A DNA stretch of 64,000 nucleotides. Source: Gemmatimonas groenlandica (GTDB lineage Bacteria > Gemmatimonadota > Gemmatimonadetes > Gemmatimonadales > Gemmatimonadaceae). Made by a program: the position numbers and the translations under genes. Under the pieces are notes generated by a model. The model saw only the letters and a program-made list of their open reading frames with translations. It was not told the origin of the DNA and searched no databases. Below, piece by piece: positions 5,191 to 19,547 of the stretch. Each line of letters starts with the position of its first letter. The first letter of the stretch is position 1. Where the stretch lies: contig NZ_CP053085.1 in assembly GCF_013004105.1 (NCBI RefSeq), forward strand, positions 4,216,001 through 4,280,000, read 5' to 3'.

Positions 5191-5835
5191 ATGCGCCCAA
5201 TGCCTCGGATGTGCACGCTCGTTGCGGTTGCCCTCTCCGCCTGTTCTCCCTCGCCGAATGACCGTACCGACGCGACGAATGCATCGTTTGCCTCGTACGA
5301 TGCGGGCGCCGTACCCGGTGGTCCCGGTTCCAAGCAGTCGTACGCCCTAGGGCACCTGGCTGCTGACTCCGCCATCGCGGCGATGAATCAGGACATCGGC
5401 CCTGACGGTGTGGAGCTTCCCGCGGGGCGTGGCTCGGTGCAACGCGGCGCCGTGGTGTACGCGGCACAGTGTTCGCAGTGTCATGGAGCCAAGGGAGAGG
5501 GACTGCCCACGTTCCCCAAGCTGGTGGGGCGCGATTCAGCCGGCGCTCCCACGCCGGAGTTCCAGTTTGCTACGAAGAACAAGACCAAGACGATCGGCAA
5601 CTACTGGCCGTACGCCACGACGCTGTTCGATTACATCAAGCGTGCGATGCCGTTCGCCACGCCGGGCTCGATGACCGACGACGACGTGTATGCGGTGACC
5701 GCGTTCCTGTTGTCGGCGAATGCCGTCATTCCCGACACGACCACGCTCGACGCCGTAGCGCTTCGCGCCATCCGCATGCCGGCGCGTGATCATTTCGTGC
5801 CGGACAACCGCAAACCCACCGCCACCACCAAATAG
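5191..5835 (+). CDS. c-type cytochrome lipoprotein, SoxD-like partner of the SoxC-like enzyme
   Basis: This 214-residue protein starts at the ATG two bases after the molybdoenzyme stop. The frame is open further upstream, but that part overlaps the molybdoenzyme and looks non-coding. The signal peptide ends in ALSAC (lipobox Cys18), so it is probably membrane-anchored in the periplasm. There is one haem c site, CSQCH (94-98). RAMPFATPGSM supplies the probable axial methionine (Met153), followed by the usual last helix MTDDDVYAVTAFLL. It probably accepts electrons from the upstream molybdoenzyme and passes them to a terminal oxidase. Its stop (TAG) overlaps the GTG start of the next gene by one base. 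Confidence 0.85.
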   Translation: MRPMPRMCTLVAVALSACSPSPNDRTDATNASFASYDAGAVPGGPGSKQSYALGHLAADSAIAAMNQDIGPDGVELPAGRGSVQRGAVVYAAQCSQCHGAKGEGLPTFPKLVGRDSAGAPTPEFQFATKNKTKTIGNYWPYATTLFDYIKRAMPFATPGSMTDDDVYAVTAFLLSANAVIPDTTTLDAVALRAIRMPARDHFVPDNRKPTATTK

Positions 5836-13757: not shown

Positions 13758-13999
13758 GGATCAACAGCGGATACCAACGGTTCCTGCCTGACACGGATAC
13801 GAGCTGATACGAACCGATAGCAACTGATCATCCGCGCCACGCGACCGAGCCCGTGGCTCGACGGCGGTTCAATTTTGCAATTGAACAACTCGTGCGTGAT
13901 TACGATCTCGCCGACCGCACGGGACGGATCCGTTCGCAGCCGTTGCTATCGGTTCGTATCCGTGTCAGGCTGGAACCGCCTGTTTCCGTTCCTATCCCG
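13758..13999. repeat. Long palindromic iteron element, copy C (second of a tandem pair)
   Basis: This is the tandem neighbour of copy B with a period of 251 bp. The arms carry units GATACGAGCT, GATACGAACC and GATAGCAACT at left and the inverted units at right. The central hairpin is the best in the family: GTTCAATT (13867-13874) with AATTGAAC (13879-13886) and a 4-nt loop. The remaining 100 bp to the next gene (14000-14098) show no further feature. A frame of 526 codons that reads through this repeat into the next gene is a false extension. Confidence 0.88.
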
Positions 14000-14098
14000 C
14001 GGGCCGCGATCGCAGCAACGACGGACGTGGCGGCTCGACGAATGTCAGGGAAATACCGGTTGCGAGAGGGAGCACGCGGTCCCACTGTAACTGGGACT

Positions 14099-15433
14099 AT
14101 GAATACCGGATTACGTCGGACTTTCGGCGCCTATGCGGCGGTGGTCTCGCTACTCGGAGTCGTGGCCGCCACGCTCGGCAGCACGCCCACGTCGGTCGCC
14201 AGACGTTCGCGCTCGTTCGCCCCCGCCACGCGCGATCCCATCGCCCGGTTGCAGTCGCAGCTCGACGTGGGGCAGGTCACACTGGCCCACGACTCGCTGT
14301 TGGGCTACCTACCCGCGTTGCTGAAGACGCTGAAGATCCCTGTCTCGTCGCAGGGGCTCGTGTTCTCGCGCACCAGTTTGCAGACCGACAAGATCACGCC
14401 ATGGTCGCCGCGCGCGATCTACTTCAACGACGAGGTATACATCGGCTACGTGCAGGAAAGCACGTTCCTCGAGATTGCCACTGTCGATCCGGTGAAGGGT
14501 GCGGTGTTCTACACGCTGAGTCAGGAACCGCGGGCTCGCCCCGTGTTCTCCCGCGAGACGACCACGTGTCTCATGTGCCACCAGTCCCGCACTGCCACCG
14601 GCGGCGTGCCGGGGTTCATGGTGATTTCGACTATCGCTGACCGCTACGGCTATCCCGTGGTGGGGATGCATGAAGGCAGTACGACCGACGCCACGCCGCT
14701 TAGGCAGCGCTTCGGTGGTTGGTATGTGACCGGCTCTGCCGGCGCACAGGGACATGCCGGCAACGTGTACTCGCCCAAGCTGGCGCACGAGATCACCGAC
14801 AAGCCGGCGTATCGCGCGCAGCTCGACATGAATGCCGAAAGCGCACGCCCGGATCTCACCGGCAAGTTCGATCCGACGCCGTATTTGTCGGCGCAGAGCG
14901 ACATCGTGGCGCTGATGGTACTCGTGCATCAGACTGTCGTGCACAACCTCATTACGGCGGTGCATGAAGCCGCTCCCGACGCCGTGTTCGAAGACTCCAT
15001 GTCGCGGGCCAGTGGACGCGACACCACCTCGCGCGCACAGCCCGGGGGCGGACCAGCGGCCCGTCTGCGTCGTGACGTGGAGAAGCTCGTGCGGGCGATG
15101 CTGTTCGTCGGCGAAGCCCCGTTCAGTGGCACGGTGAAAGGCACCACCACGTACGCGCAGGACTTCGTGAAAGCGGCGCCACGCGATGCGAAGGGGAGGT
15201 CGTTGCGGGATCTCGATCTCGAGAAGCGGCTCTTCAAGTATCCGCTCAGCTTCCTGATCTACTCCGACAGCTTCAACGCGCTCCCCGCTCTAGCAAAGAG
15301 CGAGGTGTACCGGCAGTTGCGCGCGATTCTGACCGGCGCCGACGCGAGCGCGGAGTTCGCGCAACTCTCAGCCAGCGATCGCGCGGCGATTCTGGAAATT
15401 CTCTCGGCCACCAAGCCGGACTTCCCGCGCTAA
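14099..15433 (+). CDS. Exported CxxCH-containing protein of unknown family
   Basis: This 444-residue protein has an N-terminal hydrophobic segment (AAVVSLLGVVAATLG, residues 13-27) acting as signal or anchor. There is one haem-c-like motif CLMCH (157-161), located after RPVFSRETTT. I recognise no cytochrome fold around it. The rest is a mixed alpha/beta sequence (SPRAIYFNDEVYIGYVQEST, GGWYVTGSAGAQGHAGN). Later histidines (LVHQTVVHNLITAVHEA) could be axial or metal ligands. The chosen ATG at 14099 gives a clean signal peptide. Another in-frame ATG lies at 14042. It is convergent with the DUF4159 gene, 10 bp between the stops. It is probably a periplasmic haem protein, reaction unknown. Confidence 0.7.
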   Translation: MNTGLRRTFGAYAAVVSLLGVVAATLGSTPTSVARRSRSFAPATRDPIARLQSQLDVGQVTLAHDSLLGYLPALLKTLKIPVSSQGLVFSRTSLQTDKITPWSPRAIYFNDEVYIGYVQESTFLEIATVDPVKGAVFYTLSQEPRARPVFSRETTTCLMCHQSRTATGGVPGFMVISTIADRYGYPVVGMHEGSTTDATPLRQRFGGWYVTGSAGAQGHAGNVYSPKLAHEITDKPAYRAQLDMNAESARPDLTGKFDPTPYLSAQSDIVALMVLVHQTVVHNLITAVHEAAPDAVFEDSMSRASGRDTTSRAQPGGGPAARLRRDVEKLVRAMLFVGEAPFSGTVKGTTTYAQDFVKAAPRDAKGRSLRDLDLEKRLFKYPLSFLIYSDSFNALPALAKSEVYRQLRAILTGADASAEFAQLSASDRAAILEILSATKPDFPR

Positions 15434-16115: not shown

Positions 16116-17135
<1,020 letters not shown>

Positions 17136-18251: not shown

Positions 18252-19547
18252 TTATGCCGGTGTGATGTGCTTGAGCGTAATGTCGGCGAGTGATCGGGTG
18301 CCGCTCTGCTTCATGGCGACTTCGAATTCCTTGCGCAACAAGCCGAGTACGGCTTCCACGCCTTCCTGCCCGAAGGCGCCAAGGCCCCAGATGTAGGGAC
18401 GGCCAATACCGATGGACGTGGCGCCGAGTGCCATGGCCTTGAACACATCGGTGCCGCGGCGGAATCCGCCGTCGCAGATCACGGGGATGCGACGTTCGGT
18501 GCCGAGCAGCACCTCCGGCAGCGACGTGATCGTCGCGCGATGCGAGTTCTCGGCGCGACCGCCGTGATTCGACACGAACAGTCCGTCCACGCCGTGCTTC
18601 ACCGCGAGATCGGCATCTTCGGCGGTCACGATGCCTTTGATCAGGACCTTCATGCTGGTCGACTGCTTGAGGCGATCGATGAACTCCCAGGTGGGCGTGC
18701 CCACCTCCGGGATCGGCGTGGCTTTCTGATAGCCCACGAGATTCGGCTTACGTCGGTTGTCGCGATCGTCCACGCGTCCGCTTACACCGGGGAGCGGTGC
18801 CCCGCCCAGATGGCACTTGGTGCAGGTCCGCGTGTCCTTGCGCGCTTCGCGGATCATGGTTTCGCGATTACTGCCACCCAGCAGATCGACCGTGAACGCG
18901 ATCGCCGGGGCGCCCGCCTTCTCCACGCGCTTCACCATCTGCTTGGTAACCGCCCAGTCGGATTGGTGATACAGCTGAAACCACACCGGTCCACCGCGCG
19001 CCTCGATGGCGTCTTCGATCGACGTCGTGGCCACCGTGGAGAGTACCATGAGGTGATCTTTCGTCTTGGCCGCGCGGGCCGTGGCGATTTCGCCGAGCGG
19101 ATTAAAGGCCTTCTGGCTGCCCAGCGGGTTGACGATGATCGGCGTGGGGTACTTGGTGCCGAACCACGACACGCTGGTATCGAGCCGACTCACGTCGATC
19201 AGGCGGCGAGGACGCATCGCCCAACGATCGAAGCCCTGGCGGTTGGCTTGGATGGTGGCGTCGTCGTCCGTGCCGGTCGCGAGATAGCCCCAATGGGCCA
19301 CTGGAATGTTCTGCTTGGCGACCGGCTCGAAGTCGAAAACATCCAGCGCTTCGCCGGCGGTGCGGATCTGCTGCGCCAGCTGAAGAGCCGTGTCGTCCAG
19401 GCGAGTTCGCGGTCCGTCGCTGGCCTGCAGCAGGCGTGAGAACACCGATTCGTCGAGACCGGCGGCAGCCAACAGCGGACTGCCCGCCAGAAACGTAAGG
19501 AAATGACGGCGAGAGGGGTCGATGGACATGCCCCAAATGGCACTCAT
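18252..19547 (-). CDS. Tat-exported FMN-dependent alpha-hydroxy-acid dehydrogenase with an internal CxxCH motif
   Basis: This 431-residue protein belongs to the lactate dehydrogenase/glycolate oxidase FMN family. Visible residues are the flavin-binding lysine in VLIKG (Lys304), the catalytic histidine in SNHGGR (His328), and the phosphate-binding end ICDGGFRRGTDVFKAMALGA with GIGRPY. It differs from cytosolic relatives in two ways. First, it begins with a twin-arginine signal (PSRRHFLTFLAGS). Second, the loop between barrel strands contains TCTKCHLGG (Cys242-His246), a c-type haem binding motif. It may oxidise lactate or another 2-hydroxy acid in the periplasm and hand electrons to a bound haem (inference). 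The ATG at 19529 is an alternative start and keeps the Tat motif. Confidence 0.85.
   Translation of the reverse strand: MSAIWGMSIDPSRRHFLTFLAGSPLLAAAGLDESVFSRLLQASDGPRTRLDDTALQLAQQIRTAGEALDVFDFEPVAKQNIPVAHWGYLATGTDDDATIQANRQGFDRWAMRPRRLIDVSRLDTSVSWFGTKYPTPIIVNPLGSQKAFNPLGEIATARAAKTKDHLMVLSTVATTSIEDAIEARGGPVWFQLYHQSDWAVTKQMVKRVEKAGAPAIAFTVDLLGGSNRETMIREARKDTRTCTKCHLGGAPLPGVSGRVDDRDNRRKPNLVGYQKATPIPEVGTPTWEFIDRLKQSTSMKVLIKGIVTAEDADLAVKHGVDGLFVSNHGGRAENSHRATITSLPEVLLGTERRIPVICDGGFRRGTDVFKAMALGATSIGIGRPYIWGLGAFGQEGVEAVLGLLRKEFEVAMKQSGTRSLADITLKHITPA

Follow-up and report, generated by a model that had tools for sequence, protein, structure and literature searches.

Gemmatimonas groenlandica, whose genome is a single contig of 5,179,092 bases, encodes a flavin-dependent dehydrogenase that combines a CxxCH motif with a Tat-type signal in one chain. 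We asked whether this motif is likely to hold a c-type haem next to the flavin and, if so, how haem could be attached to a protein that would leave the cytoplasm in a folded state. The analysis covered a 64,000-nucleotide stretch of the chromosome (the window), and positions are those of the window unless stated otherwise.

A Tat-type FMN-dependent dehydrogenase with a CxxCH motif

The gene for the FMN-dependent 2-hydroxy-acid dehydrogenase is located on the minus strand at 18252 to 19547, with its ATG at 19547, and encodes 431 amino acids; the plus strand of the same interval contains stop codons and is not open. The Pfam model FMN_dh spanned residues 77 to 429 (E = 5.7e-108; 361.5 bits, cut-off 24.9). 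The top Foldseek match of the window protein was 1gox (TM score of 0.91 on the target), and glycolate oxidases were among the nearest solved structures, with glycolate oxidase the best by fold. Scores with the curated NCBIfam models for L-lactate oxidase, LldD, and MftD were far under the respective cut-offs (203.7 versus 645.5, 175.8 versus 550, and 194.5 versus 470.9 bits). The initial annotation had described the catalytic residues of the FMN family as complete, and upon alignment to 5zbm all seven residues of the glycolate oxidase set (Tyr, Tyr, Asp, Arg, Lys, His, and Arg) were indeed recovered, as Y88, Y193, D221, R228, K304, H328, and R331. Of these, Y88 (19284 to 19286, minus strand) occupies the position of the catalytic Tyr24 of glycolate oxidase. 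At the position of glycolate oxidase Trp108 the window protein has Val172, and Val is found there in 75 of the 104 CxxCH proteins described below.

The N terminus of the protein, SRRHFLTFLAGSPLLAAAG, is of the twin-arginine type and is followed by a linker and, from residue 77 onward, by the barrel. The twin arginines R13-R14 (19506 to 19511, minus strand) were present in all 99 aligned clade members, in agreement with the twin-arginine signal proposed earlier. The haem c attachment motif, CTKCH (residues 242 to 246), is encoded at 18810 to 18824 on the minus strand, inside the interval 18810 to 18835 in which a CxxCH had been reported for this FMN_dh protein with the strand left unstated.

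Conservation of the CxxCH motif

Homologues were gathered from 298 genomes of the phylum Gemmatimonadota (70 carriers at an E value of 1e-80) and further from GTDB genome contigs, with two other phyla searched in 398 and 297 genomes and matches found in 6 and 21, respectively. In total, 146 FMN_dh proteins were aligned, 104 of them with CxxCH; L007 was left out on account of an in-frame TAG. The 104 CxxCH proteins, from Gemmatimonadota, Acidobacteriota, Pseudomonadota, and other phyla, formed 67 clusters at 80% identity, and their pairwise identity had a median of 51% and a minimum of 38%. Loss of a Cys or of the His in close homologues had been named beforehand as an argument against haem binding; in the 104 relatives, C242, C245, and H246 were all kept, and variation was seen in the two intervening letters, in the residue after the motif, and in the spacing between the motif and the [KR]P further on, with it the length of the loop. 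Such variation around a fixed Cys/Cys/His set is usual for haem c sites. CxxCH was found in none of the 41 other FMN_dh proteins aligned, which include two Tat-type near relatives, nor in the FMN_dh paralogues of the same genome. Since the motif is retained in an identical position throughout the clade and the paralogues and the 41 other proteins lack it, the sequence comparison confirmed that the CxxCH of the window protein is more than chance.

The presence of the motif showed a sharp break near 285 bits of similarity to the window protein: no protein under this value had CxxCH, and all proteins over it did, with the exception of L086, L155, and L078. In L078 the His codon contains an ambiguous base, to which the apparent loss of the His is ascribed. 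A further relative, on a plasmid of Methylobacterium bullatum, also has CxxCH and stands outside the tally of 104. Viral contigs yielded no relatives. In one subclade (L042, L043, L044, L046, L080, L082, L154, and L156 to L160) an extra pair of Cys residues, CxxCG, is found near the N terminus besides the CxxCH, and this pair could be a zinc knuckle or a second redox site.

Residues that accompany the motif

The alignment columns of the CxxCH set were compared one by one with those of the other FMN_dh proteins. Residues fixed to 98% or more among the CxxCH proteins and almost never present in the others were C242, C245, H246, H85, R115, and F392. H85 (19293 to 19295, minus strand) was His in 103 of 103 CxxCH members and in 0 of 40 other FMN_dh proteins. 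R115 (19203 to 19205, minus strand; 98% versus 5%) is a possible haem-site residue, and F392 (18372 to 18374, minus strand; 99% versus 7%) lies in the helix after beta8. W198 (18954 to 18956, minus strand; 95% versus 2%), also clade specific, is at the start of alpha3, next to loop 4.

In the structure model, H85 is on the helix of residues 83 to 90, three residues (one helical turn) ahead of the catalytic Y88. In flavocytochrome b2, Tyr143, the equivalent of Y88, faces the haem, and H85 should therefore lie on the side where an FMN-adjacent haem would be. We propose H85 as the most likely distal ligand of the haem. A downstream KPM motif, whose Met is at the site of N269 (18741 to 18743, minus strand), was considered as the source of a universal distal ligand and rejected: of the 104 proteins, 72 have Met at this site, 24, including the window protein, have Asn, and 8 have other residues. 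In many relatives Met269 may nevertheless be the distal ligand, the window protein having Asn.

A tree that holds the CxxCH proteins together was not worse (p-AU = 0.845), so the clade may be of single origin, in which case the fixed residues show constraint rather than independent coupling events. The Tat-type proteins L086 and L155, which lack Cys, Cys, and His as well as H85 and W198, were considered as losses of the site, since a quick free tree nested both among the CxxCH proteins; the constrained tree with the CxxCH proteins together had the better likelihood, so that the trees do not demonstrate a loss. L086 and L155 and the acidobacterial L103 and L109, all FMN_dh proteins of the Tat type in which both CxxCH and H85 are missing, are natural comparison enzymes for the putatively haem-bearing clade.

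The motif is located in loop 4, the active-site lid

The motif had been assigned to a loop between barrel strands, and it could now be placed more precisely, in the loop 4 insert of residues 229 to 285 (18693 to 18863, minus strand; pLDDT of 48 to 82), the active-site lid between beta4 (residues 215 to 219) and alpha4 (residues 287 to 296) of the model. In lactate oxidase, loop 4 is an active-site lid that is partly disordered in crystals (PMC4908395), and mandelate dehydrogenase and lactate monooxygenase are marked by long loops 4 (PMC8491902). For the window protein, the AlphaFold2 model was confident in the barrel and uncertain in the loop (block means of 48 to 67 at residues 241 to 280). 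For the homologue L069, which has a compact loop, block means in this region were 78 to 85, and the whole CxxCH (residues 216 to 220) was predicted on one helical turn, as would be expected for a haem c site. None of the Pfam cytochrome c families matched the window protein at an E value of 0.001, and no recognised cytochrome c fold was found in the loop, which is very short; the smallest cytochrome units comprise 40 to 74 residues (PMC6472588).

Presumed export and haem attachment

A Tat-like N terminus was found in 105 of the 105 CxxCH sequences tallied, with a choice of start codons that favoured the RR. In 15 CxxCH sequences of several lineages (L027, L031, L037, L038, L040, L049, L050, L075, and others) the Tat-like N terminus is followed by a lipobox-like Cys; these are probable Tat-exported lipoproteins, and the Cys is consistent with mature proteins on the outer side of the inner membrane. 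The genome of G. groenlandica encodes TatC and, from the Ccm system for haem attachment, CcmB, CcmC, CcmE, and CcmF; CcmB adjoins an ABC protein. The haem-lyase family was found in 24 of 25 carrier genomes, the exception being one metagenome-assembled genome (MAG) of Verrucomicrobiia. The genome further encodes many CBB3-type cytochrome c domains, and proteins with such domains could serve as electron acceptors. One of these domains is found in the window at 5437 to 5709 on the plus strand (genome positions 4221437 to 4221709), approximately 13 kb from the gene, and might conceivably be an acceptor.

The initial annotation had pointed out that Tat substrates fold before export, whereas haem c is attached to unfolded chains. 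The question is a real one, but it can probably be resolved. In the predicted barrel, low confidence and flexibility are found mainly in the lid, which could therefore accept haem in an unfolded state while the rest of the Tat substrate is folded and loaded with FMN. In the open-access literature we found nothing on haem c in FMN_dh proteins, nor on haem attachment to Tat substrates.

Genomic neighbourhood

Clustering of the neighbouring open reading frames of 35 stretches revealed no widely shared neighbour and hence no conserved operon, so that neither the partner nor the substrate can be inferred from context. In two acidobacterial loci (L065 and L066) the dehydrogenase gene is followed by a gene that, as read from its sequence, resembles an HpcH/HpaI-type aldolase, and a pathway of 2-keto/2-hydroxy acids may be indicated. 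Two other genes of the window deserve mention. At 16116 to 17129 (minus strand) a protein is encoded that scores over the NCBIfam cut-off for light-dependent protochlorophyllide reductase (TIGR01289; 469 bits, cut-off 331), in a host that is an aerobic anoxygenic phototroph, and the species paper makes no mention of this enzyme. At 13853 to 15433 (plus strand) lies the gene of a 526-amino-acid protein with a CLMCH motif of its own and no match in Pfam or NCBIfam, which is likely a c-type haem protein.

Proposed function and alternative explanations

Taken together, we consider it probable that the window protein, a member of the FMN-dependent 2-hydroxy-acid dehydrogenase family, is a periplasmic flavocytochrome c with a putative haem. 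The points that count for this reading are the invariant Cys, Cys, and His in a divergent family, the full catalytic set, the occurrence of CxxCH only with a Tat-like N terminus, the co-fixation of H85, R115, F392, and W198, the Ccm, TatC, and cytochrome c domains encoded in the genome, the haem-lyase family in nearly all carrier genomes examined, and the helical turn predicted for CxxCH in L069. Against it count the missing cytochrome c fold, the shortness of the loop, the want of a universal Met ligand, the one carrier MAG in which the haem-lyase family was not found, and the co-occurrence of H85, which may stem from one origin. Of the c-haem in the barrel loop that had been proposed, the invariant Cys, Cys, and His amid varying letters and the position in the loop thus held, and haem binding itself stays putative.

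The main rival is a structural Cys2His2 metal site, in which C242, C245, H246, and H85 would bind zinc or iron and so fasten the lid onto the N-terminal helix, with electrons passing to quinone or oxygen as they do in other members of the family; it seems unlikely to us. In its favour, the number of candidate ligands that are both invariant and clade specific is exactly four, and the extra N-terminal CxxCG of one subclade (12 proteins) is a common form of zinc knuckle; that pair is, however, missing from most members. Adjacent Cys and His on one small metal would be unusual, CxxCH is the standard motif for haem c, and the intervening letters resemble those of haem c sites and not CPxCG knuckles. 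Moreover, the proteins are of the exported type and their hosts bear Ccm. If the two Cys residues instead formed a disulfide or thiol switch that latches the lid, this would suit the position of the loop and the frequent oxidation of periplasmic CxxC pairs, but would leave the invariance of H246 (104 of 104) and H85 (103 of 103) unexplained, and we regard it as very improbable. The haem might also be attached and yet not relay electrons from FMN to cytochrome c, acting rather as a redox or gas sensor, a peroxide scavenger, or a gate of the lid. A five-coordinate haem is conceivable in the window protein, which has no Met ligand, and no partner gene was found nearby. Given that H85 is invariant, that the position of loop 4 above the flavin site is ideally suited to electron transfer, and that flavocytochrome b2 offers a precedent with FMN and haem 0.53 nm apart (PMC6472588), we give such a role quite a small chance.

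For the periplasmic flavocytochrome c, the following sequence of events can be envisaged. The barrel would fold in the cytoplasm, take up FMN, and leave via Tat, for which the signal is present. Loop 4 would stay accessible, and C242 and C245 would receive haem from Ccm, the proximal ligand being H246 and the distal one most likely H85. FMN would then be reduced by a 2-hydroxy acid and would give up its electrons singly to the neighbouring haem c, from which an oxidase or a soluble cytochrome c would take them over; flavocytochrome b2 works in this way with its N-terminal b5 domain. The most specific form of this proposal, in which the haem is itself part of the lid, c-type, held by a single loop, ligated by H85 across the mouth of the active site, and attached after export to the folded FMN-loaded Tat substrate, we put forward tentatively, as a possibility that may well prove wrong. 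If true, the lid would bind haem c with no cytochrome fold around it, and this flavin family would have a second and independent connection to cytochrome c. The family is spread across several phyla, and the searched libraries cover it only through the generic FMN_dh model. As G. groenlandica is in culture, the question whether haem c is attached to a folded Tat substrate can be tested, and a very small haem relay within a single chain would be of interest for direct-electron-transfer biosensors.

Comparison with known systems

Glycolate oxidase/hydroxyacid oxidase 1 (1gox and 5zbm), the best match of the window protein in both structure and sequence, passes its electrons to oxygen, is cytosolic or peroxisomal, and has neither CxxCH nor H85. 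(S)-Mandelate dehydrogenase and lactate 2-monooxygenase have the same fold and an elaborated loop 4, which serves for membrane binding or as a larger lid and not for haem (PMC8491902). Transfer from flavin to haem c also takes place in p-cresol methylhydroxylase, gluconate 2-dehydrogenase, and spermidine dehydrogenase (PMC6472588), but these are other flavin enzymes, in which a distinct cytochrome subunit, and not a loop of the flavin barrel, carries the haem c. Flavocytochrome b2, the yeast L-lactate:cytochrome c oxidoreductase (EC 1.1.2.3; 1kbi and 1fcb), is the functional model for this proposal and has the FMN barrel and the catalytic residues in common with the window protein. Its haem b, with His/His ligation, is bound by a b5 domain of its own at the N terminus, approximately 86 residues long (PMC6472588), whereas the window protein, in which no Cyt-b5 match was found and just 76 residues precede the barrel, has a covalent haem c motif in loop 4 and would be exported by the bacterial Tat system. 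No such combination was found in the open-access literature, and the CxxCH clade, if haem is present, would represent a variant of the flavocytochrome b2 principle. Both enzymes would then have in common the proposed flow from 2-hydroxy acid to FMN, haem, and cytochrome c, and a location, in the case of the window protein a presumed one, outside the cytoplasm.
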